Positions 22,082-37,026 of a DNA stretch of 64,000 bases are shown here, one piece after another. The notes under the pieces were generated by a model. The model had not been told where the DNA came from and did not search any database. It saw only the letters and a list, made by a program, of their open reading frames with translations. The DNA is taken from positions 1-64,000 of the forward strand of contig NZ_FNCF01000010.1 of the NCBI RefSeq assembly GCF_900100695.1, in the 5' to 3' direction. The number at the start of each line of letters is the position of its first letter. Position 1 is the stretch's first letter. Position numbers and translations under genes: made by a program. This DNA is from Klenkia brasiliensis. Its GTDB lineage: Bacteria; Actinomycetota; Actinomycetes; Mycobacteriales; Geodermatophilaceae.

Positions 22082-22903
22082 ATGCGCACTCGACTGGTGG
22101 TCCTGACCAGCCTGCTCGCGCTGGCGGCGTGCGGGCAACAGGGCACCGGCGGCCCGGCCCCGCAGCTGCCCGACGACGGCGACGCCCTCGTGCTGCGGGT
22201 GGTCGAGACCGGCGGCTCCGGACCCGGGTTCGACCCGGCCCCGCTGCCCTTCGTCACCGTGCACCGCGACGGCCGCGTGCTCAGCCTGGGCCCGGTCGCG
22301 GCGATCTACCCGCCGTTCGCCTGGCCCAACGTGCAGCTGCACCGCGTCGACGACGCCGTGCTGGCCGAGCTGGTGCAGGCCGCGCAGGACGCCGGGGTCA
22401 CCGGCACCGCCGACCTCGGCGACCCGCAGATCGCCGACGCGCGCACCACGTCGATCACCCTCGTAAACGACCAGGGCACCACCACCCGCGACGTCCCCGC
22501 CCTGCGCGAGGGGATCGGCGCCCCCTCGCTGACCGCCGAGCAGACGGCCGCCCGGCGGGCGCTGGTCGCCCTGGTCGACCGGCTCCGCGACCTGGCGACC
22601 ACCGGGCGCCCGGAGTCCTACCGCCCGACCGCGGTGGCCGCGGTCGCCCGGCCCTGGACCCCGGTCGACGGCCCGCTCCCGGAGCAGCCGGCGGTGTCCT
22701 GGCCCGGCCCGGCACTGCCCGGTGAGCCGATCGCCCCCGGTGTCGGCTGCGCCCTGGCCACCGGGGAGCAGGCCGCCGCCCTGGTCCGGGCCGCCACCTC
22801 CGCCTCCACGCTCACCCCCTGGACCGACGGCGGCCGCACCTGGGCGGTGACGTTCCGGCCGCTGCTGCCCCACGAGTCCGGGTGCGCCGACCTCGTCCCG
22901 TGA
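22082..22903 (+). CDS. Lipoprotein of unknown function
   Basis: A 273-residue exported lipoprotein with lipobox LAAC (Cys17). The mature region resembles actinobacterial surface proteins with a VVETGGSGPGF...PFVTVHRDGRVL opening, a segment LHRVDDAVLAELVQAAQDAG and a second domain ending in FRPLLPHESGCADL. No catalytic motif was recognised. A G-rich ribosome site directly precedes ATG 22082. Its stop overlaps the first GGDEF-EAL gene as GTGA, so the two may be co-transcribed. Confidence 0.72.
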   Translation: MRTRLVVLTSLLALAACGQQGTGGPAPQLPDDGDALVLRVVETGGSGPGFDPAPLPFVTVHRDGRVLSLGPVAAIYPPFAWPNVQLHRVDDAVLAELVQAAQDAGVTGTADLGDPQIADARTTSITLVNDQGTTTRDVPALREGIGAPSLTAEQTAARRALVALVDRLRDLATTGRPESYRPTAVAAVARPWTPVDGPLPEQPAVSWPGPALPGEPIAPGVGCALATGEQAAALVRAATSASTLTPWTDGGRTWAVTFRPLLPHESGCADLVP

Positions 22904-25134
22904 CCCGCAGGGGTGAGCCCCCGGTCAAGGACCGCCAGAACCGCTCCGACCCGTATCCCATGAGCCCGGCCACCCGTCTGCGCGCCCTCGTGCTGGCGGC
23001 GGCCGTCCTCGCCCTCGGTGCCTGGCCCACCACCCGGGTCGCCACCGTCCTGACCATCACCGCGCTGGCCGCGCTCGCACCGCTGGTCGCCGTCCGCCGG
23101 TACCGGCCGGACCGGCCCGAGCCGTGGCTGGCGATCAGCGCGATGCTCGCCTGCTGGTGGTCCGCCATCGCGTTCGGTCACAGCGCCCCGACGGTCGCGG
23201 TGACCACCCAGGCGCTGGGCATCGCCGTCGCCACCGGGCTGTTCGCCGTCCTGTTCGCCCGGCAGCGGCGGGCCGCGCCCCGCGACCGACGGCGCAGCCG
23301 CCGCGAGGTCTGGGGCCGCCGCAGCGACCAGGCCATGGTCGCCGTCGTCATCGCACTGGCGCTCGCGCAGGCCGTCGCCGGCGCGCTGGTCCCCGGCGCA
23401 CCGTGGTCGGTCGCCTTCGCCCCCTTCGACCTGGTGCTCATCTGCCTGCTGCTGCGCTTCACCGCCTCCCGCGCCGACCTCGGGCCGAGCATGCGGCTGC
23501 TCGTGGTGGGCGGCATCGGCGCCGCGGTCTACGACTGCCTGGCCGCCGACTCCGGCGTCCGCATCCCCGGCCCGCAGGCGACCCAGAACGTGGTCTGGGT
23601 CGCCGCGATGCTGTTCTTCCTGGCCGGCACCTTGCACCCCGGGATGGCCACCGCCTTCTCCCCCGCCCGGCTGACCCGGCTGCGCTCGGAGTCCGCCCGG
23701 CTGCTGGGCACCGCGCCGCTGGTGCTGGTGCCCGTCGCCCTCGCGCTGCTCGACAGCGCCGCCGCGCTCCCGCTCACCGTGCACCTGGCCGCCGCGGCCG
23801 CGGTCGCCGCGCTGGCCATCGCGCGCGGCGCGCAGACCATCCGGGCCAGCGAGGGCCTCGCCCGCCGCGACCCGCTCACCGGTCTGGCCAACCGCCGCGG
23901 CCTGCGCGCCGCCTTCGAGGACCTCGTCCCGCCCACCACCGACCCCGCGCACCGCGTGGGCCGGCTCGCCGTCCTGGACCTGGACGACTTCAAGCACGTC
24001 AACGACACCTACGGGCACGAGACCGGCGACGCGCTGCTGGTCGCCGTCGCCGGCCGGCTGACCGACGCGGTCGGCGCGTCGGGCACCGTCACCCGCTCCG
24101 GCGGCGACGAGTTCGTGCTGCTGCTGCGCCCGGGCGCCCGCGACGTCGGCGCAGTGCTCGCCACCGCCTTCGCCGCACCGGTGCCGCTGGCCGGCCTGTC
24201 GTTCGGGGTCCGCTGCAGCGCCGGCTGGGTGGACCTCACCGGCGCCAGCGAGCTGCCGCTGGCCCTGGCCGACGCCGACGTCGCCCTCTACGCCAGCAAG
24301 GACGGCGCCCGCGGCCGCGCCACCGGCTTCTCCCCCGAGCAGCGCGAGCAGGTGCTGGGCTCCCTCGCCCTGGGTGCGGACCTGCGACGGCTGGTCGCCG
24401 GCGACCCCGCGGCCGGCGAGCTCATGCTGCACTACCAGCCGCTGGTCGCGCTGCCCTCCCGCACGGTGCGCGGCTGCGAGGCGCTGGTGCGCTGGCGGCA
24501 CCCCGAGCGCGGGTTGCTCTCCCCCGACACCTTCCTGCCCGTCGCCGAGGCGCAGGGCACCGCCGCCGCGATCGACACCTGGGTGCTGCGCGAGGCCTGC
24601 CGCTCGGCGACGACCTGGCCCGACCCCGACTGGACGGTGAGCGTCAACCTCGGCCGCTCGTCGATGGTCTGCCCCGACCTCGCCGCCACCGTGCGGGCCA
24701 CCCTGGCCGAGACCGGCCTGCCGGCGGCCCGGCTGCACCTGGAGATCACCGAGCACGACCAGCTGCCCGCCGACGCCGGCGTGCTGGCCCTGCACGAGCT
24801 GGCCGCCGACGGCGTGGGCCTGGCCCTGGACGACTTCGGCACCGGCTACACCTCGGTCGCCTACCTGCAGCGCTACCCGATCACCGTGCTCAAGCTCGAC
24901 CGCAGCGTCACCGGCTGCGACGCCTCGCCCGCCCTGCTCAGCGGCCTCGTCGGGCTGGCCGACGCCCTGGGCACCACGGTGCTCGCCGAGGGCATCGAGA
25001 CCGACGAGCAGTGCACGCGGCTGGCCCGGCTCGGGGTGGACGCCGGCCAGGGCTGGCTGTTCGGCCGCCCGGTGCCCGCCGACCGGCTGGGCGACCTGCG
25101 CCCGCTGCCGGCCGGAGCAGCCCCGGAGGGATGA
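22900..25134 (+). CDS. Membrane-bound GGDEF-EAL cyclic-di-GMP protein (1)
   Basis: A 744-residue membrane protein that may make and/or degrade cyclic di-GMP. About eight hydrophobic segments occupy residues 25-310. The diguanylate cyclase domain follows, with DPLTGLANRRGL (324-335) and an intact GGDEF (401-405). The phosphodiesterase domain follows with EAL (527-529) and DDFGTGYTS. No RxxD product-inhibition site precedes GGDEF. Both signature motifs are intact, so either activity is possible. GTG 22900 overlaps the previous stop; ATG 22960 is an alternative, but the longer start aligns with the N-terminus (PVK...) of the next, paralogous protein. Confidence 0.9.
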   Translation: MTRRGEPPVKDRQNRSDPYPMSPATRLRALVLAAAVLALGAWPTTRVATVLTITALAALAPLVAVRRYRPDRPEPWLAISAMLACWWSAIAFGHSAPTVAVTTQALGIAVATGLFAVLFARQRRAAPRDRRRSRREVWGRRSDQAMVAVVIALALAQAVAGALVPGAPWSVAFAPFDLVLICLLLRFTASRADLGPSMRLLVVGGIGAAVYDCLAADSGVRIPGPQATQNVVWVAAMLFFLAGTLHPGMATAFSPARLTRLRSESARLLGTAPLVLVPVALALLDSAAALPLTVHLAAAAAVAALAIARGAQTIRASEGLARRDPLTGLANRRGLRAAFEDLVPPTTDPAHRVGRLAVLDLDDFKHVNDTYGHETGDALLVAVAGRLTDAVGASGTVTRSGGDEFVLLLRPGARDVGAVLATAFAAPVPLAGLSFGVRCSAGWVDLTGASELPLALADADVALYASKDGARGRATGFSPEQREQVLGSLALGADLRRLVAGDPAAGELMLHYQPLVALPSRTVRGCEALVRWRHPERGLLSPDTFLPVAEAQGTAAAIDTWVLREACRSATTWPDPDWTVSVNLGRSSMVCPDLAATVRATLAETGLPAARLHLEITEHDQLPADAGVLALHELAADGVGLALDDFGTGYTSVAYLQRYPITVLKLDRSVTGCDASPALLSGLVGLADALGTTVLAEGIETDEQCTRLARLGVDAGQGWLFGRPVPADRLGDLRPLPAGAAPEG

Positions 25135-25135
25135 G

Positions 25136-27352
25136 TTGCGGACCCGACCGGTCAAGACCGACCCGTCCGGGGCCGACAACACGGGGGTGACCGTCCCCGC
25201 CCGCCTGCTCGCCGCCGCCACCGCCGTGGCGCTGGCGCTGTGCCTGCTGCCGGGCACCCGGGCGGACGCCGTCGTCGGCATCAGCGTGCTGGCCGCGCTG
25301 GCCCCGCTCATCACCTTGCTCCGGCACCCGGCCGCCTGGCTGATGTGGTCGCTGGTGGCCGGCATGCTCGGCACCTGGGCGGTCTCCATGGCCGTCACCG
25401 ACATCTCCCCCGCCCTCGCCGGGGCGACCCAGCTGCTGGGCCTGGTGCTCGCCGTCTCCCTCGTCGTCACCCTGTACGCCCAGCACCTGCGGGCCCGCCC
25501 GGCCGACCGTCGCCGGCACGAGCGCGGCAGCTGGGCGCGCCGCGCCGACCAGGCCGCCCTCGCCGTCGTCACCGGGCTCGCGACCGCCCAGATCGCCACC
25601 ACCGCGCTGTCCCCGACCGCCCCCGTCGGCGCGGCGTGGGCGCCGGTCGACGCGCTCGTGGTCGCGGTGCTGCTGCGCTTCGCCTGCTCCCGGGCCGGGC
25701 TCACCCGCAGCCTGCAGCTGGTGCTGGCCGCCGGCGCGGTCAACTGCCTCTACGACATGGTCGCCTCGTCCTCGGGCGTGCGGCTGCAGCCGCTGGACCG
25801 GCCGGTGCAACTGCTCTGGGCGCTGTCGATGGCCCTGTTCGTCGCCGGCGCCCTGCACCCCAGCGCCGGCACCGCGTTCTCCTCGTCCTCCCTGCGCCAC
25901 CTGCGCCCGGAGTCCGGCCGGGTGCTCGGGCTGGTCGCGCTCGCGCCCGTGCCGCTGGTGCTGGCCCTGCTGAACCCGGGCGGGCGGCTGCCCTGGCTGG
26001 TCTACGTTGCCGCCGGCACCGCGCTGGCCGCGCTCACCACGGCCCGCGGCGCCCAGGCGCTGGCGGCCAGCGAGGCCTACGCCCGGCTCGACCCGCTCAC
26101 CGGCCTGGCCAACCGCCGCGGCCTGCAGAGCGCCTACGAGGCGCTGCTGCTGGCCGCCTCCTCCACCGGCGGCCCGGTCGGCCGGCTCGTGCTGCTCGAC
26201 CTGGACGACTTCAAGGTGGTCAACGACACCCACGGCCACGAGTCCGGTGACCAGCTGCTGTGCGTGGTCGCCGACCGGCTGCGGACGGCGGTCGGCGGCG
26301 CCGGCACCGTCGCCCGGTCCGGCGGCGACGAGTTCGTCCTCGTCCTGCACCCCGGCGCCCCGCCGGTGGACGCGCTGCTGCGCGCCGCCCTGGACGGGCC
26401 GGTCACCCTCGCCGGGGCACCGGGCACCCGCTTCGACGTCCGGGCCAGTGCGGGCTGGGTCGACCTGGAGGAGGACAGCCGCCTGCCGCACGCCCTCGCA
26501 GACGCCGACATCGCGCTCTACACCAGCAAGGCCACCCACCGCGGGGCCGCGACCGCGTTCGTGCCCGCCCAGCGCCAGGAGGTCCTCGGCCAGCTCGGCC
26601 TGGGCGAGGACCTGCGCCGGCTGGTGGCCGGCGGGTCGGGCGCCGGTCAGCTGTTCCTGCTGCACCAGCCCCTGGTCGACCTGGTCGACGGCCGGGTGCT
26701 CGGGTACGAGGCGCTCGTCCGCTGGCAGCACCCCACCCGCGGCCTGCTCGCCCCCGACTCGTTCCTGCCCGTCGCCGAGAGCCAGGGCCAGGGCGCCGCG
26801 CTGGACGGGTGGGTGCTCGCGCAGGCCTGCGCCACCGCCGCGGGCTGGCCGGCCGACCTCACCGTGAGCGTCAACCTGGGCCGCTCCTCGATGGTGGACC
26901 CGCTGCTGGCCGACCGGGTGCGCGCGGCGCTGCGCGACAGCGGCCTGGACCCCCGTCGGCTGCACCTGGAGATCACCGAGCACGAGGCGCTGCCCGCCGA
27001 CGCCGGCGTCGCGGCGCTGCACGAGCTGGCCGACCTCGGCGTGGGCGTCAGCCTCGACGACTTCGGCACCGGCTACACCTCGCTGGTCTACCTGCACCGC
27101 TACCCGGTCGGCGTGCTCAAGCTCGACCGGTCCATCACCGGCGCCGACACCAGCGACGAGCTCATCGCCGGGCTGACCAGCCTGGCCTCGGCCCTGGGCA
27201 TCCGGGTGCTCGCCGAGGGCGTGGAGACCGAGGAGCAGCACCGCCGGCTGGCCGGGTTCGGCATCGACGCCGGCCAGGGGTGGCTCTTCGGCCGCCCCGT
27301 CCCGGCCGCCGACCTCGTGCACCGGGCCGAGCCCGTCAGCAACCCCATGTAG
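25136..27352 (+). CDS. Membrane-bound GGDEF-EAL cyclic-di-GMP protein (2)
   Basis: A 738-residue tandem paralogue of the preceding protein. It has the same multi-helix N-terminus, DPLTGLANRRGL (319-330), intact GGDEF (396-400), EAL (525-527) and DDFGTGYTS. The start is TTG 25136, set by GGAGGG exactly five bases upstream and lying one base after the stop of the first gene. Duplication followed by divergence is clear; the two may answer different signals through their membrane domains or may form one complex. No RxxD site is seen before GGDEF. Confidence 0.9.
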   Translation: MRTRPVKTDPSGADNTGVTVPARLLAAATAVALALCLLPGTRADAVVGISVLAALAPLITLLRHPAAWLMWSLVAGMLGTWAVSMAVTDISPALAGATQLLGLVLAVSLVVTLYAQHLRARPADRRRHERGSWARRADQAALAVVTGLATAQIATTALSPTAPVGAAWAPVDALVVAVLLRFACSRAGLTRSLQLVLAAGAVNCLYDMVASSSGVRLQPLDRPVQLLWALSMALFVAGALHPSAGTAFSSSSLRHLRPESGRVLGLVALAPVPLVLALLNPGGRLPWLVYVAAGTALAALTTARGAQALAASEAYARLDPLTGLANRRGLQSAYEALLLAASSTGGPVGRLVLLDLDDFKVVNDTHGHESGDQLLCVVADRLRTAVGGAGTVARSGGDEFVLVLHPGAPPVDALLRAALDGPVTLAGAPGTRFDVRASAGWVDLEEDSRLPHALADADIALYTSKATHRGAATAFVPAQRQEVLGQLGLGEDLRRLVAGGSGAGQLFLLHQPLVDLVDGRVLGYEALVRWQHPTRGLLAPDSFLPVAESQGQGAALDGWVLAQACATAAGWPADLTVSVNLGRSSMVDPLLADRVRAALRDSGLDPRRLHLEITEHEALPADAGVAALHELADLGVGVSLDDFGTGYTSLVYLHRYPVGVLKLDRSITGADTSDELIAGLTSLASALGIRVLAEGVETEEQHRRLAGFGIDAGQGWLFGRPVPAADLVHRAEPVSNPM

Positions 27353-27444: not shown

Positions 27445-28878
27445 ATGCAGGTCGACGACGTCCAGTCGCTGCAGCAGCACGCGGCCTGGCGGCTGCTCCG
27501 CGCCGACGACGCGCCCCTCGTCGTCGCGTTCCTCGCCCGCGTCTTCACCGAGGGCGGCGCGCACGGCCTGCCCGCCGGCGAGCTCGCCGACCGCCTCGCC
27601 GACCTGCTCGCCGAGCTCGACGGCACCCCCCGCGTCCCGGTCGACGCCCGCGGCTACCTCGACGGCTGGGCCGGCCCGGACGGCGGCTGGCTGCGCGCCT
27701 GGTACCCGCCCGGCTCCGACGAGCCGCTCATGGACGCCACCCCCGCCGCCGAGCTCGCCGTCGCCTTCGTCCGTGGCCTGCAGCCCCGGCCCTTCGTCGA
27801 CACCGCCGCCCGGCTGGGCGCCGTGGTCGACCTGCTGCGCGCGCTGGCCACCGAGGACGTCGAGCCGGCCCTGCAGCGCGACCGCTACCTGCACCTCACC
27901 GCCACCGCGACCGGCCTGCTGGCCGACCTGCGCGCGGTCGAGGCCGCCTTCCGCGCGCGCGACCGCGAGCTGCGCGACGCCATCGCCGCCGGGGACGGCG
28001 CGCTGGCCCTCGACGTCGCCGCCGGCCGCCGGGGCATCGCCGAGACCGACCAGGGCCGCAGCTTCCACGCCTGCTACGACCGGCTGCTCTCCCCCCGCCT
28101 GCAGGACGAGCTGATCGAGCTGCTGGACCGGGTGCACGCCCTGCCCGCGGTGCGCACCTGCACCGACCCCCGGATGCGGCGCATCCGGCACGACCTGGTC
28201 GCCGCCGCCCAGCACACCCGCCAGGTGCTGCGCGGGCTGGTCGACGTGCTGCGCACCGGCCTGGACGACCGGGTGTGGCAGGAGAACCGCCGCGTGCTGG
28301 ACCTGGTGGCCGGCATCGAGACCCGCGCCCGCACGCTGTCGGCGGGCCTGGCCGACCTGGACGGGTTCGCCGTCGAGCTCGACGACCTGCACCCCACCGT
28401 CGTGCTGCCGATGGAGCGCCACCTCTACGCCCCGCCCCGCCGCGCCGCCGTCGACAGCGCCCGGCCCGAGGCCGGCGACGAGGACTTCGCCGCCGCGGCC
28501 CTCTTCGACCAGGTGCAGGTCGACCCGGTGCCGCTCACCGCGCACGTGCGCCGCGCCCTGCTGCAGCGCCCCCGCGTGGAGCTGGCGACCGTGCTGGAGC
28601 AGCACCCGCTGCAGCACGGCCTCGCCGAGCTGGTCGCCTACCTGTCGCTGCGCGACGAGGCCTTCGACGTCGTCCTGCCCGCGCCCTCGGACGAGGACCA
28701 GCCCGGGGACGACGACACCGTCGCCTGGACCGACCCCGACGGCCGGGCCCGCACCGCCACCCTGCCCCGCGTGGTCTACGCCCGCCGCGACACCGACCCG
28801 CGCGCCGGCTCCCGGCACCCGGCCGGCCGCCGCGCCCACCCCGCCGTCCCGACCGTGCTCGCGGAGGACCCCCGATGA
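27445..28878 (+). CDS. jetA: JetA / MksF-like condensin kleisin subunit (DUF3375)
   Basis: A 477-residue DUF3375 protein, the kleisin-like subunit of the Wadjet/MksBEF condensin family. It links the two ATPase heads of the SMC-like subunit in loop-extruding complexes that recognise circular plasmid DNA. The sequence is mostly helical, with a conserved-type N-terminus (VQSLQQHAAWRLLRADDAPLVVAFL). It is first of three overlapping genes in jetA-jetB-jetC order. ATG 27445 is preceded by GGGAGGGG. It lies 92 bases after the second GGDEF-EAL gene. Confidence 0.85.
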   Translation: MQVDDVQSLQQHAAWRLLRADDAPLVVAFLARVFTEGGAHGLPAGELADRLADLLAELDGTPRVPVDARGYLDGWAGPDGGWLRAWYPPGSDEPLMDATPAAELAVAFVRGLQPRPFVDTAARLGAVVDLLRALATEDVEPALQRDRYLHLTATATGLLADLRAVEAAFRARDRELRDAIAAGDGALALDVAAGRRGIAETDQGRSFHACYDRLLSPRLQDELIELLDRVHALPAVRTCTDPRMRRIRHDLVAAAQHTRQVLRGLVDVLRTGLDDRVWQENRRVLDLVAGIETRARTLSAGLADLDGFAVELDDLHPTVVLPMERHLYAPPRRAAVDSARPEAGDEDFAAAALFDQVQVDPVPLTAHVRRALLQRPRVELATVLEQHPLQHGLAELVAYLSLRDEAFDVVLPAPSDEDQPGDDDTVAWTDPDGRARTATLPRVVYARRDTDPRAGSRHPAGRRAHPAVPTVLAEDPR

Positions 28879-29507
28879 CCACCCTGCTGCCCCCCGCACC
28901 GCCCCGGGCCGAGCTGAGCCTGCCGCTGGTGGTGACCTCGTTGATGCGCGGCGTCGTCCAACGTGAGTCTCAACCGGAAGTGTGGCGGCACCTGCTCGCC
29001 CTGCAGCCGGACCTGCGCGACCACGTCGCCGTCCTCGGGCTGGTGCCGGTGGTCGACGAGACCGAGGGCTACGCCTTCCTGCGCCAGCGCCCCGACGAGG
29101 AGCCCGACGGCGGCGTCCCCGTGCCCCGGCTGGTGGCCCGCCGGTCGCTGTCGTTCCCGGTCAGCCTGCTGCTGGCGCTGCTGCGCCGCCGGCTGGCCGC
29201 CACCGACGCCGGTGAGGCCGGCAGCCGGCTGGTGCTCACCCGGCTGGAGATCGTCGACCTGCTCGCCGACGTGCTCCCCGACCCCGGCCGCCGCAACCGG
29301 CTGGTCGAGCAGGTCGACGGGCACATCGCCAAGGCCGTCGAGCTCGGCTTCCTGCGCCGGATGCCCGGCCCGGACGGCGGCTTCGAGGTCCGCCGGGTGC
29401 TCAAGGCCTTCGTCGACGCGCAGTGGCTGGCCGACTTCGACGCCAAGCTCGCCGAGTACGCCGCCGCCACCCAGCAGCTGCAGCCCGCCGTGGAGGACCT
29501 GCCGTGA
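28875..29507 (+). CDS. jetB: JetB / MksE-like condensin subunit (DUF4194)
   Basis: A 210-residue DUF4194 protein, the winged-helix KITE-type subunit that binds the kleisin JetA. Typical segments are LPLVVTSLMRGVV near the start, VSLLLALLRRRLAATDA in the middle, and a winged-helix part ending in ELGFLRRMPGPDGGFEVRRV. The start overlaps the jetA stop (ATGA), and its own stop overlaps the jetC start (GTGA), so the three subunits are made together. Confidence 0.85.
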   Translation: MTTLLPPAPPRAELSLPLVVTSLMRGVVQRESQPEVWRHLLALQPDLRDHVAVLGLVPVVDETEGYAFLRQRPDEEPDGGVPVPRLVARRSLSFPVSLLLALLRRRLAATDAGEAGSRLVLTRLEIVDLLADVLPDPGRRNRLVEQVDGHIAKAVELGFLRRMPGPDGGFEVRRVLKAFVDAQWLADFDAKLAEYAAATQQLQPAVEDLP

Positions 29508-32500
29508 CCACCCTCCCGCCCGTGCCGCACCTGCTGCTGACCACCGAGGACGACGGCCCCGACGGCCCCGCCCCCCGCGCCGGGTTCCGGCTCGACCGCC
29601 TCGAGCTGCTCAACTGGGGCACGTTCGACCGCAAGGTCTGGACGCTGCGCGCCGACGGGCAGAACACGCTGCTCACCGGCGACATCGGGTCGGGCAAGTC
29701 GACCATCGTCGACGCGCTGACCACCCTGCTGCTTCCCGCGGCAAGGGTCTCCTACAACGAGGCCGCCGGCGCCCCCACCCGCGAGCGGGACCTGCGCTCC
29801 TACGTGCAGGGCCACTGGCGGGCCGAGCGCGGCTCCACCGGCGGCACCCGCACCGTCGGCCTGCGCCCGGGCAGCACCTGGACCGCGCTGCTGGCGGTGT
29901 TCCGCAACGAGGGCCTGGACGAGGTCGTCACCCTCGGCCAGGTGTTCTGGCTGCGCTCGGGCGAGGTCGGCCAGCCCGACCGGTTCCACCTCGTCGCCGA
30001 CCGCGACCTCTCGATCGCCGGCGACCTCGCCGACTTCGGCAGCGACCCCGCGGCACTGCGCCGCCGGCTGGCCGCCCGGCCCGACGTCGAGGTCTTCGGC
30101 ACCTTCACCGAGTACGGCCGCGCCTTCCGCAACCGGCTGGGCATCGCCTCGGAGCAGGCGATGGACCTGTTCCACCAGACCGTGTCGATGAAGACCGTCG
30201 GCGACCTCAACGGCTTCGTCCGCAGCCACCTGCTCGAGCCCGGGGACTCCGCCGGCTGGGTGGACCGGCTGCTCGGCCACGTCGACCACCTCACCCGCGC
30301 CCACGACGCCGTCGTCACCGGCCGCGCGCAGCTGGCCCAGCTGCGGCCGGTGCTCGCCGACGCCGACCGGCACGCCGTGCTCACCGAGCAGATCGCCACC
30401 GTCGACGCCGACCTGGCCGCGCTCCCCCGCTGGGCGGACACCCTGCGCGAGAAGCTGCTCGCCGCCCGCGCCACCACCCAGCGCGCCGAGGTCGCCACCG
30501 TCGACCGCGCGCTGACCCAGGGCATCACCAACCTGGACCTGGCCCGCGCCCGCGAGCTGTCGCTGACCATGCAGCGCACCGGCAACGGCGGCGAGCGGCT
30601 GCGCTACATCGACGACCAGCTGCTCGAGCTCGAGGAGGCCCGCCGCGAGCGGCGCACCCGGGCCGGGGTGTTCGCCGGCCTGCTGGAGGCCACCGGACTG
30701 GACCCGGTCGTGGACGGCGAGGACTTCGTCGTCCGGCGCACCGAGGTCGCCGAGGCCCTCGCCCGCGCCGTGGAGAGCGAGGCCGAGGCCGAGGACCGCC
30801 TCGCCGAGGTCGAGGTGGCGCTGGCCGCGCTGCGCTCGCGCGCCGCCGGCATCGGCCACGAGCTGACCGGGCTGCGCGGGCGCACCGGCGCCGTCCCCCG
30901 CGAGCAGGTGCTCCTGCGCGACCGGCTGGCCGCCGCCCTCGGGGTCGACGCCGCCGCCCTGCCCTTCGCCGGCGAGCTGGTCCGCGTCTCCCCCGTGCAC
31001 GCCGAGTGGCTGCCCGCCGCCGAGCGGGTGCTGCGCGACTTCGCGCTCACCCTGCTGGTCCCCGCGCAGCACTACGCCGACGTCTGCGCCTGGGTGGAGG
31101 CCGCCGACCTCGGTGCGCAGCTGGCCTACCTGCCGGTGCCCGCCGAGCTGCCCACCGCCGCACCCATGCCCGCGCCGCAGTCGCTGGCCGCCGTCCTGGA
31201 GGTCCGGTCCTCCCCGCTGGCGGCCTGGGTGGAGGGCCAGCTGGCCCGCCGCGCCCCGCACCTGCGGGTCGACGACGTCGAGGAGTTCGCCCGCACGCCC
31301 GTCGCGGTCACCCGGACCGGCCAGGTCAAGGACCGCACCGGCCGGCACGCCCTGGACGACCGGCACCCCACCGGCGACCCGGTGCACCGCGTGCTGGGCT
31401 GGGACAACGCCGGCAAGATCCGCGCGCTGACCGCCGCGGAGAACGCCCTGCTGCCCCAGCTCGCCGAGCTCACCGCCGCCCGCGACGCCGTCCGCGCCGA
31501 GCGCTCCCGCGCCGTGGCCCGCGGCCGCGACCTCGCCCAGCTGTCGGCCTACGACAGCTGGCGGGCGCTGGACTGGCAGGGCGCCATCCGGCAGATCGCG
31601 GAGCTCGGCCGGGAGCGGGACCTGCTGGTCGCGGCCTCGGGCGTGCTGTTCGGCCTGGACGGCGCGATGGACGACGTCCGCCGCGACATCGTGGCCCTGG
31701 CCACCGCGCAGGCCACCCTGCAGCAGCGCCGCGGCGCCGCCGCGCACGCCCTGGGCGAGACGTTCTCGGTGCTGGAGGGCGTGCGCCGCCGGCTGGGCGC
31801 CGCCGGTGCCGCCGACGAGACCCCCGACGTGCGGCCCGCGCAGCTCGCGGTGGACGACGGCTCCGCGGTCGCCCGGGCGCTGCGCATCGACCGCTCGCTG
31901 ACCGCCCCCGAGCGGCTGGACCGCCGCGCCCTGGTGGCCTCGGTCCCGGTGACCGACCTGGCCGACGTCGACGAGCGCGAGCGGAACATGCGCGCGCTGC
32001 TGGAGCGCGAGCGCACCACCCAGGTGTCGGTGCGCGCCGAGGTCGAGGAGCGGATGGTGCGCGCGATGGCCGCCTTCCGCGCCCAGCACCCCGACGTCGC
32101 CGCCTCCCTGGACGCCTCGCGCGGTGCCGTGGAGTCCTTCCGGGCGCTGCACGAGCGGCTGCGCACCGACCAGCTGCCCCGCGCCGAGGCCGCGTTCACC
32201 GCGCTGCTGGAGCAGGACACCGTCCGCGACGTCGCCGGGTTCCTCGCCGAGCTGGAGCACCGCGCCGACCAGGTCACCGAGCGGGTGGCGGCCATCAACG
32301 GCTCGCTGCACGACATCGACTACCACCCGGGCCGCTACCTGGCCCTGGAGGCCCGGCGCTCGGGCGCCCCGGAGATCGAGGACTTCCGCGCGGACCTGCG
32401 GGCCTGCGCCGAGGCCGACGGCACCGACCCGGAGGAGCGCTTCGCCCGGGTCGCCCGCGTGGTGCACCGGCTGCGCGGCCGCGCCGGGCACGCCGCCGAG

Positions 32501-32986
32501 GACCGCCGCTGGGCGCGGCTGGTCACCGACGTGCGCACCTGGTTCGAGTTCACCGCGACCGAGCGGTGGCGGCACGACGGCGCCGAGCACGAGACGCACA
32601 CCGACGCCGGCGGCAAGTCCGGCGGCCAGAAGGAGAAGCTGGCCTACACGGTGCTCGCCGCCTCGCTGGCCTACCAGTTCGGCATCGACCCGACGCGGAC
32701 GATGGCCCGCGACTTCCGGTTCGTGGTCATCGACGAGGCGTTCGGGCGCGGGTCGGACGACTCCACCCGGTTCGCCCTGGACCTGTTCGCCCGGCTGGGC
32801 CTGCAGCTGCTCGTCGTCACCCCGCTGCAGAAGATCCACACCATCGAGCCCTACGTGGCGTCGCTGGCCTACGTGGACAACCAGCAGGGCGACGAGTCGC
32901 GGCTGCAGTGCCTCACCGTCGCGGACTACCGCGCCCGCCGGGCCCTGTCGCGCACGGTGCGGGACGGCGTCACCGCCCTCGGCTGA
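29504..32986 (+). CDS. jetC: JetC / MksB-like SMC ATPase
   Basis: A 1160-residue SMC-like ATPase. It carries Walker A GDIGSGKST (59-67), long helical arms rich in Glu, Arg and Ala (about 370-480 and 700-980) around a central region, the ABC signature SGGQKEK (1039-1045) and Walker B FVVIDEAF (1073-1080). ATP-driven head closure would power DNA loop extrusion. The GTG start overlaps the jetB stop. No jetD (DUF3322/Toprim nuclease) follows: the next gene is a convergent hydrolase whose 3' end overlaps jetC by 17 bases. Confidence 0.9.
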   Translation: MTTLPPVPHLLLTTEDDGPDGPAPRAGFRLDRLELLNWGTFDRKVWTLRADGQNTLLTGDIGSGKSTIVDALTTLLLPAARVSYNEAAGAPTRERDLRSYVQGHWRAERGSTGGTRTVGLRPGSTWTALLAVFRNEGLDEVVTLGQVFWLRSGEVGQPDRFHLVADRDLSIAGDLADFGSDPAALRRRLAARPDVEVFGTFTEYGRAFRNRLGIASEQAMDLFHQTVSMKTVGDLNGFVRSHLLEPGDSAGWVDRLLGHVDHLTRAHDAVVTGRAQLAQLRPVLADADRHAVLTEQIATVDADLAALPRWADTLREKLLAARATTQRAEVATVDRALTQGITNLDLARARELSLTMQRTGNGGERLRYIDDQLLELEEARRERRTRAGVFAGLLEATGLDPVVDGEDFVVRRTEVAEALARAVESEAEAEDRLAEVEVALAALRSRAAGIGHELTGLRGRTGAVPREQVLLRDRLAAALGVDAAALPFAGELVRVSPVHAEWLPAAERVLRDFALTLLVPAQHYADVCAWVEAADLGAQLAYLPVPAELPTAAPMPAPQSLAAVLEVRSSPLAAWVEGQLARRAPHLRVDDVEEFARTPVAVTRTGQVKDRTGRHALDDRHPTGDPVHRVLGWDNAGKIRALTAAENALLPQLAELTAARDAVRAERSRAVARGRDLAQLSAYDSWRALDWQGAIRQIAELGRERDLLVAASGVLFGLDGAMDDVRRDIVALATAQATLQQRRGAAAHALGETFSVLEGVRRRLGAAGAADETPDVRPAQLAVDDGSAVARALRIDRSLTAPERLDRRALVASVPVTDLADVDERERNMRALLERERTTQVSVRAEVEERMVRAMAAFRAQHPDVAASLDASRGAVESFRALHERLRTDQLPRAEAAFTALLEQDTVRDVAGFLAELEHRADQVTERVAAINGSLHDIDYHPGRYLALEARRSGAPEIEDFRADLRACAEADGTDPEERFARVARVVHRLRGRAGHAAEDRRWARLVTDVRTWFEFTATERWRHDGAEHETHTDAGGKSGGQKEKLAYTVLAASLAYQFGIDPTRTMARDFRFVVIDEAFGRGSDDSTRFALDLFARLGLQLLVVTPLQKIHTIEPYVASLAYVDNQQGDESRLQCLTVADYRARRALSRTVRDGVTALG

Positions 32987-33755
32987 GGGCCTCCTCCAGG
33001 GCGGCGGCGAACGCGACCGGGTCGCCGCCCTGGCCGGGGTGGAACCCGCCGTGCCCGCCGGGGAAGGTCAGCAGCGGCAGGCCGTGCTCGGCGGCCACCG
33101 CGGCCGCCGTCCGCCCGGTCGTCGCCTGCCCCGACCACGCACCGACCCCGACGGCCACCCGTCCCTCGGGCAGGTCCCCGACCCGGTGCGAGGTGATCGA
33201 CCGCAGGCCCAGCACCATCCGGGTCATCGCCCGCTGGTCGGCCTCGCCGGGCAGCTCCGGCGGCGGCGGGAAGCCGTTCTGCCGGGCGAACTCGCCCATC
33301 GCGGCCAGCAGGCCCTGCTCCCGGTGCAGGCGCTGCACCTCGTCGCCGTTCGCGCGGTGCAGGTCGGCGTCCGCCAGGTACTCGACCAGCGGCGGCTCGT
33401 GCGCGACCACGGTGCGCATCTGCTCGGGGTGGGTGGCGGCCAGCTCCAGCGCGGTGATGGCGCCGCCGCTGGACCCGAACACGTCGGCCGGCTCGGAGGT
33501 GACCGCGGCCAGCACCCGGGACAGGTCGTCGGCCAGGGTGGCGACGTCCGGCGGCTGCGCGGAGTCGGTCATCGTGCTGGCGCCGGTGCCGCGCGGGTCG
33601 TGCAGCACGACGGTGTGCGCCCCGGTCAGCCGCTCGGCCAGCGGCCGGAACCCGTCGGCGGGCATGGGGTGGCCGATGAGCGCCAGCACCGGGCCGCTGC
33701 CGAGCACCTCGTAGGACAGGACGGCGCCCGGGGCGTCGAGGGTGTGGGTCGTCAC
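32970..33755 (-). CDS. Alpha/beta hydrolase
   Basis: A 261-residue alpha/beta-hydrolase-fold enzyme, probably an esterase or similar. It has the oxyanion strand ALIGHPMPADGF, the HDPRGTGAS loop, the nucleophile elbow FGSSGGAI and a C-terminal His in TFPGGHGGFH. The substrate is unknown. GTG 33755 matches the family N-terminus. Its 3' end overlaps that of jetC in convergent orientation; it is unrelated to the condensin genes in function. Confidence 0.85.
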   Translation of the reverse strand: MTTHTLDAPGAVLSYEVLGSGPVLALIGHPMPADGFRPLAERLTGAHTVVLHDPRGTGASTMTDSAQPPDVATLADDLSRVLAAVTSEPADVFGSSGGAITALELAATHPEQMRTVVAHEPPLVEYLADADLHRANGDEVQRLHREQGLLAAMGEFARQNGFPPPPELPGEADQRAMTRMVLGLRSITSHRVGDLPEGRVAVGVGAWSGQATTGRTAAAVAAEHGLPLLTFPGGHGGFHPGQGGDPVAFAAALEEALSRGR

Positions 33756-36049: not shown

Positions 36050-36958
36050 TCACCCGGCGGTCGGCAGCGGCTCCTGCGGGCACGTACCGAGCACGGTGGC
36101 CATCGCGTCGTGCTCGGCCTGGGTGGTCCACAGGCCGTAGGCGGCCTTGACCGCGACCTGGCGGGCGACGTAGGCGCAGCGGTAGCCGCGGTCGGGCGGC
36201 AGCCAGGTCGCGGCGTCGCCGTCGCGCTTCTGGGAGTTCAGCCCGCCGTCGACGGCGAGGAGGTTGAGCGGGTCGTTGGCGAAGGCGACCCGGGTGGCGG
36301 CGTCCCAGCCCTGCGCACCGGTCTGCCAGCTGTTCGACAACGCCACCACGTGGTCGATCTGCACGGCCTCGCTGGTGCCCTGACCGCGCTGGAACAGGAT
36401 CGTGGCGCCCGAGTACGGGTCGACCAGGACGCCGCTGGTGACCACGCAGTCGCGGGTGCCGGGGCGGAACTGCTCGGCGGTGAGGTCGCGGGCGAGCACG
36501 TCGTTGCGGGTGTCGCAGCCGTTGCGGTCGGTGTCGACCCAGCCCTCGCCGTACTGGTCGCGCTCGTAGCCGGTCTGCGGCGCCCGGCCGCGCACGGGCA
36601 GCTGGGCCAGCGCGGCCAGCGCCGTGCCCGGGGCCGCGGCCACCGGGGACTGGGTGGCCACCGGAGGCTGGGTGGCCACCGGAGGCTGGGTGGCCACCGG
36701 AGGCTGGGTGGCCTCCGGGGTCGTTCCGGCCGACGACGGCACGGACGACGACGGTGCCGGCGATGCCGGCAGCTGGGTGCTCGCGGTGGGGACCGGCGCC
36801 GGGGCCGCGTCCTCCCCGCCCAGCACGCCGAACCCGACGCCGAGCAGCACGGCCAGCGCGCACACCGCCGACAGCAGGGCGCGGCGGCTGCGCCGGGACG
36901 GGCCGGTGCGGGCGGGGCCGGCCCGCTCGGACCGGACGCGCACGGGTCGGGAGCTCAC
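36050..36958 (-). CDS. Exported HNH nuclease (DUF1524 family)
   Basis: A 302-residue exported nuclease of the DUF1524/HNH type. A basic stretch and membrane segment (ALLSAVCALAVLLGVGFGVL) precede a Pro/Ala/Thr linker with a tandem repeat. The catalytic domain then shows TGYERDQYGEGWVDTDRNGC, VQIDHVVALSNSW with the key Asp-His, ANDPLNLLAVDGGLNSQKRD and YRCAYVARQV. It probably degrades extracellular DNA. GTG 36958 is chosen as the first start giving a plausible signal region; it is 68 bases from a divergent thioesterase gene. Confidence 0.85.
   Translation of the reverse strand: MSSRPVRVRSERAGPARTGPSRRSRRALLSAVCALAVLLGVGFGVLGGEDAAPAPVPTASTQLPASPAPSSSVPSSAGTTPEATQPPVATQPPVATQPPVATQSPVAAAPGTALAALAQLPVRGRAPQTGYERDQYGEGWVDTDRNGCDTRNDVLARDLTAEQFRPGTRDCVVTSGVLVDPYSGATILFQRGQGTSEAVQIDHVVALSNSWQTGAQGWDAATRVAFANDPLNLLAVDGGLNSQKRDGDAATWLPPDRGYRCAYVARQVAVKAAYGLWTTQAEHDAMATVLGTCPQEPLPTAG
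36650..36720. repeat. 18-bp tandem repeat, four copies
   Basis: The unit CTGGGTGGCCACCGGAGG is repeated about four times (the last copy is imperfect) within the nuclease gene. It encodes the repeated PPVATQ linker between the membrane anchor and the nuclease domain; copy number could vary by slippage without changing the frame. Confidence 0.85.
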
Positions 36959-37026
36959 CGCTCGAGGGTGCCGACCGCGTCCGCGCGGGTGCCCCAGCGA
37001 CACGCGTTCTGGTTGGATCGGCCGCC

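Follow-up and report, generated by a model that had tools for sequence, protein, structure and literature searches.

Within the window, the whole 64,000-nucleotide stretch of DNA that was analyzed from the soil-dwelling Klenkia brasiliensis (Geodermatophilaceae), three intact open reading frames encode a kleisin, a KITE subunit, and an SMC/MukB-like ATPase (Table 1). JetA matches DUF3375 (Pfam, E 8e-93), JetB matches DUF4194 (E 1e-39), and JetC contains AAA_29 and SbcC_Walker_B domains. PADLOC assigns the three proteins to JetA1, JetB1, and JetC1 of type I Wadjet, with 1162 bits for JetC1. JetB reaches 41 bits with the MksE model (PF21980, cut-off 27) and 136 bits with DUF4194. Consecutive genes overlap by 4 nt (ATGA at jetA/jetB and GTGA at jetB/jetC), and the ATPase motifs of JetC are intact (Walker A GDIGSGKST, signature KSGGQKE, and Walker B FVVIDEAF). 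The end of a hydrolase gene on the opposite strand overlaps the end of jetC by 17 nt, leaving no space for a jetD 3' of jetC. The gene positions agree with the sequence-only reading of this DNA, which had described complete, coupled JetA, JetB, and JetC followed directly by a convergent hydrolase. A promoter and terminator scan found nothing.

Table 1. Features of the jetABC region, in window coordinates
Feature	Position	Strand	Basis or remark
GGDEF-EAL protein, 92 bp 5' of jetA, conserved Klenkia neighbor	25136..27352	+	
jetA, kleisin (DUF3375), 477 aa	27445..28878	+	Pfam, PADLOC, alignments, models
Approximate point of the 32-residue JetA deletion, ~codons 139-141	27859..27867	+	alignment
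jetB, KITE subunit (DUF4194), 210 aa	28875..29507	+	Pfam, PADLOC
jetC, SMC/MukB-like ATPase, 1160 aa	29504..32986	+	Pfam, PADLOC, ATPase motifs
Convergent alpha/beta hydrolase	32970..33740	-	occupies the jetD place of relatives
GmrSD_C (HNH-type nuclease) protein with secretion-like N terminus, near jetABC in Klenkia loci	36050-37003	-	only nuclease-fold neighbor found

In Wadjet, JetABC extrudes DNA loops and passes circular DNA on to JetD; plasmid restriction depends on each of the four proteins (PMC10586767, PMC12647877). The Klenkia locus shares with type I Wadjet (JetABCD; MksFEBG in Corynebacterium glutamicum) the gene order A-B-C, a DUF3375 JetA, a DUF4194 JetB, and a JetC1 with ATPase motifs, but JetD (DUF3322 plus Toprim) is present neither in the operon nor elsewhere in the genome. 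The sequence-only reading had noted the lack of jetD beside jetABC and proposed a genome search for DUF3322/DUF2220 proteins. JetD_C (PF09983) and DUF3322 (PF11795) both gave zero matches in the whole 4.45-Mb genome, a draft of 14 contigs that is 99.97% complete. The absence also extends across the genus: PF09983 has zero matches in any Klenkia genome, and our own profile of 14 JetD sequences had no hit at E<=1 across nine Klenkia genomes, eight of which are at least 99% complete (G081 is 73% complete). This profile works, since it recovers the JetD of a Cellulosimicrobium strain with an E of 7e-48. As the genome is a draft in 14 contigs, an assembly or annotation artefact could be thought to conceal jetD; however, the gene after jetC is contiguous with it and overlaps it, and the nine genomes agree. 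Such an artefact is extremely improbable overall, and for the position adjoining jetC it is already refuted. Because the defining part is missing, we do not class the Klenkia system as Wadjet.

Relatives of the Klenkia genes are mostly accompanied by jetD. A JetC relative was found in 23 of 112 genomes of the family, and every carrier outside Klenkia also has a JetD match just downstream of jetC. The closest outside relatives, with 53-56% JetC identity, belong to the same family and are all jetD-adjacent. The same holds in an even sample of 394 genomes of the class, where JetD lies alongside each of the other JetC with a full type I score (over 800 bits; 20/20). In a JetC tree of 91 rows, built by a quick method and with Pseudomonas aeruginosa MksB not among the rows, Klenkia JetC is joined to five jetD-bearing Geodermatophilaceae with 100% SH-aLRT. 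This sister position to type I JetC of the same family indicates that Klenkia JetC is Wadjet-derived, and the Klenkia system is, accordingly, the core of a type I Wadjet whose nuclease was lost or left behind. jetD may have been lost in place, or jetABC may have been gained without it; the direction rests on the placement among jetD-bearing systems. In three jetD-bearing relatives from the same family, jetA and jetB are separated by a PemK/MazF-like toxin gene (L033:13099-13764, L035:11979-12694, and L036:6417-7074), preceded in L033 by a ribbon-helix-helix protein.

Among the 80 nearest named JetC loci of a contig scan, most have jetD adjoining jetABC. The exceptions are Klenkia, four Oerskovia, three Cellulosimicrobium, one Sanguibacter, six Gordonia, and one Azonexus, whose locus is interrupted. 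A seventh Gordonia, G. hydrophobica, has a jetD-less jetABC with a second Wadjet directly upstream (L063:2691-7818), comprising a JetB-like protein, JetC in two ORFs, and JetD. When whole genomes were searched, no JetD was found in 12 of the 13 jetD-less genomes tested (Klenkia and G. hydrophobica excluded). On the JetC tree, the jetD-less label requires five changes, each of them imposed by well supported branches, compared with an average of 20 for shuffled labels. One change is the broken Azonexus locus and another is G. hydrophobica, labeled as jetD-bearing; discounting both leaves three real jetD-less lineages, namely Klenkia, a Micrococcales group, and Gordonia. Thus, the jetD-less state appears to have arisen independently in at least two further actinobacterial lineages (Gordonia and Oerskovia/Cellulosimicrobium/Sanguibacter). 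Like the Klenkia system, these are type I without jetD and are kept across the species of a genus.

Within Klenkia, complete jetABC is found in six genomes, the present one and G076, G077, G080, G082, and G083, with JetC identities of 86-96% (95-96% to the nearest named relative, K. taihuensis DSM 45962). The six loci share one syntenic setting of a lipoprotein gene, GGDEF-EAL genes, jetABC, mostly the hydrolase, an M10 peptidase, and a NUDIX gene. The hydrolase is missing in two of them (G077 and G083, given as K. soli and K. terrae) and therefore is not part of the system. Directly 5' of jetA and on the same strand lie two tandem GGDEF-EAL proteins (c-di-GMP enzymes; 22882-27352, +); the pair is retained in the jetABC-bearing Klenkia loci that were read, with one copy matched in G080. 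A remnant is found in G079 (L032:12023-15981), where jetA is truncated to the linker and C-terminal part, jetB is missing, and jetC lacks the Walker A lysine, the signature, and Walker B. This jetC is open over 1052 codons, with no frameshift or stop in the remnant, and has a pN of 0.375 and a pS of 0.345, compared with 0.056 and 0.386 for the NUDIX neighbor. Neither G078, in which the region is rearranged, nor the 73% complete G081 has jetABC. The remnant and the two genomes without jetABC show that the locus is dispensable.

The central part of Klenkia JetA is remodeled. In all Klenkia JetA but the G079 remnant, 32 residues are missing where the N-terminal winged-helix domain gives way to the next, long helix. 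This stretch is present in every other full-length type I JetA of the set, with or without jetD, and in the solved JetA of P. aeruginosa and Escherichia coli; one Gordonia JetA is short of four of the 32 residues. Structural models of medium confidence (pLDDT 74 and 72), used for secondary structure and fold class only, place a helix at residues 146-168 in the JetA of a jetD-bearing Geodermatophilus system (L048) and none in Klenkia JetA. A helix loss common to all jetD-less lineages was rejected, as the alignment confines it to Klenkia. Among columns conserved in at least 95% of JetA from jetD-bearing systems, Klenkia changed 32 of 78 between residues 119 and 300, compared with 4 in the Micrococcales lineage and 5 in Gordonia, both of which form independent JetC branches and retain the helix and the conserved central positions. 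Before residue 119, Klenkia changed 2 of 25 such columns, and in the C-terminal domain 0 of 13. JetC is altered next to the head (residues 881-985), where 10 of 33 conserved columns are changed in Klenkia and 0-2 in the other jetD-less lineages. We infer that the kleisin-neck joint was probably rebuilt, with both SMC-binding ends retained.

Loss of many conserved JetA sites would also be expected from a decaying defense island, in which jetD was lost first and the remainder is on its way out. The truncated jetA and ATPase-dead jetC of G079, with pN close to pS, and the lack of jetABC in G078 and G081 point in the same direction. However, six genomes retain all three ORFs, the ATPase motifs are intact in those genomes checked, and dN/dS is well under 1 even between close species. 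Across jetA, jetB, and jetC, dN/dS in Klenkia pairs is about 0.13-0.53, and nonsynonymous change lies far below synonymous change in the pairs tested (Fisher p 6e-3 to 2e-36); values are at most 0.22 in the other jetD-less lineages and 0.05-0.43 in jetD-bearing pairs. Klenkia jetABC is thus still under purifying selection, if somewhat more loosely, and we regard decay as unlikely.

The sequence-only reading had offered two interpretations, an MksBEF-like chromosome organizer or a Wadjet variant that uses another nuclease. For the second, in which JetABC would be partnered with a nuclease in trans and plasmids would still be cut, no good partner was found. The motor is intact, defense systems exchange effectors, and a GmrSD_C-type (HNH) protein is kept ~3 kb downstream in Klenkia loci. 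Yet no nuclease is adjacent or coupled to jetABC, and the N terminus of the GmrSD_C protein is hydrophobic and then Pro-rich, as is typical of secretion; its role as replacement nuclease is unsupported, the protein being likely secreted. The hydrolase was rejected as replacement effector because of its absence from two of the six loci. Moreover, JetA corresponds to C. glutamicum MksF, to which JetD/MksG binds (PMC10123090), and in Klenkia this protein is missing one helix and has changed at many conserved sites. We therefore consider a nuclease in trans quite improbable.

Plasmids might instead be controlled without cleavage, with JetABC extruding or sequestering small circles and lowering their copy number. 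Wadjet recognizes circles via the JetABC motor (PMC10586767), and MksB alters plasmid copy number in C. glutamicum (PMC7083940). In that organism, however, plasmid levels also rise when only mksG is deleted (PMC10123090), indicating that the nuclease is needed there, and we consider such non-cutting control very unlikely in Klenkia.

The organizer interpretation fits best. Klenkia JetABC very probably moves DNA in the manner of the Wadjet core, and its predicted role, which we hold to be somewhat the more probable outcome, is that of a nuclease-free, MksBEF-like DNA loop extruder or organizer beside Smc-ScpAB. As in MksBEF of P. aeruginosa, an accessory condensin, the locus is a three-gene kleisin-KITE-SMC operon without a nuclease gene, in a genome with Smc-ScpAB. 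In contrast to MksBEF, Klenkia JetC and JetB score as Wadjet type I, and the sampled relatives are jetD-bearing actinobacterial systems, MksB being outside the tree; the system would be MksBEF-like by architecture only. With MukBEF it shares the kleisin fold (Foldseek E 6e-7 to a MukBEF kleisin chain) and the general SMC design, whereas sequence family, host range, and the presence of the Klenkia complex beside Smc-ScpAB differ. Since ScpA is present in the genome, JetABC is not the only condensin and would be an accessory motor.

In such an organizer, a JetC dimer with JetB attached and with the kleisin JetA closing it would use ATP hydrolysis to extrude loops of DNA, in the manner of Wadjet and MukBEF. 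Without JetD, the finished loop would be left uncut, and JetABC would act as an accessory DNA-organizing motor beside Smc-ScpAB, like MksBEF of Pseudomonas. We infer the steps from motor to chromosomal role. The remodeling seen in the helical center of JetA and on the neck side of JetC suggests that, freed from the need to feed DNA to JetD, the complex changed its kleisin-neck joint or the geometry of its dimer. Three observations count against the organizer: dN/dS reaches 0.4-0.5 in Klenkia versus at most 0.22 in other jetD-less lineages, the locus is dispensable in the genus, and the nearest actinobacterial complex to have been studied, MksBEFG of C. glutamicum, does not fold the chromosome (PMC7083940), although MksBEFG has its nuclease.

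MksBEF, and perhaps MukBEF, have been proposed to derive from Wadjet by loss of the nuclease, in ancient events that are difficult to put to the test (PMC10586767). A bolder and more tentative possibility is that a plasmid-defense motor was re-domesticated in Klenkia as a new chromosomal SMC complex, with helix loss after that of JetD, a rebuilt kleisin-neck joint, and altered dimer geometry, and that Gordonia and Oerskovia/Cellulosimicrobium/Sanguibacter took the same step from defense to housekeeping independently. If so, these lineages would replicate in nature the way in which MksBEF and MukBEF have been proposed to arise. With at least three separate actinobacterial cases, of which Klenkia is the one with jetD-bearing relatives in the same family, the behavior of a Wadjet motor that is unable to cut can be tested directly, and the Klenkia kleisin indicates which regions may serve solely to pass DNA to JetD. 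For annotation, genes for DUF3375, DUF4194, and JetC alone do not signify an active Wadjet. No earlier report of a jetD-less type I JetABC was found in a literature search of incomplete coverage; what is new is the repeated, genus-wide absence of jetD among type I systems, together with the rebuilt kleisin of Klenkia.

Two JetC positions may track the absence of jetD. Position 1123 is Phe in 76 of 80 jetD-bearing rows and, in the three jetD-less lineages, mostly Tyr; position 982 is Gln in 71 of 80 and Arg or Leu in these lineages. Both are only a lead, because F1123Y also occurs in four jetD-bearing rows and 5 of 300 random jetD-bearing triples yield one such column. In a more distant set (L156-L160), no JetD is adjacent; the two loci tested are JetC1 by PADLOC, and L157-L160 have no JetD by profile. 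In L158-L160, which belong to one genus, the jetD-less JetABC has a cobyric-acid-synthase-like gene as its neighbor. A topA-like gene (DNA topoisomerase I, by N-terminal sequence) is located ~2.5-4 kb 3' of the jetD-less jetABC in two Oerskovia and two Cellulosimicrobium loci (L055, L060, L064, and L069).
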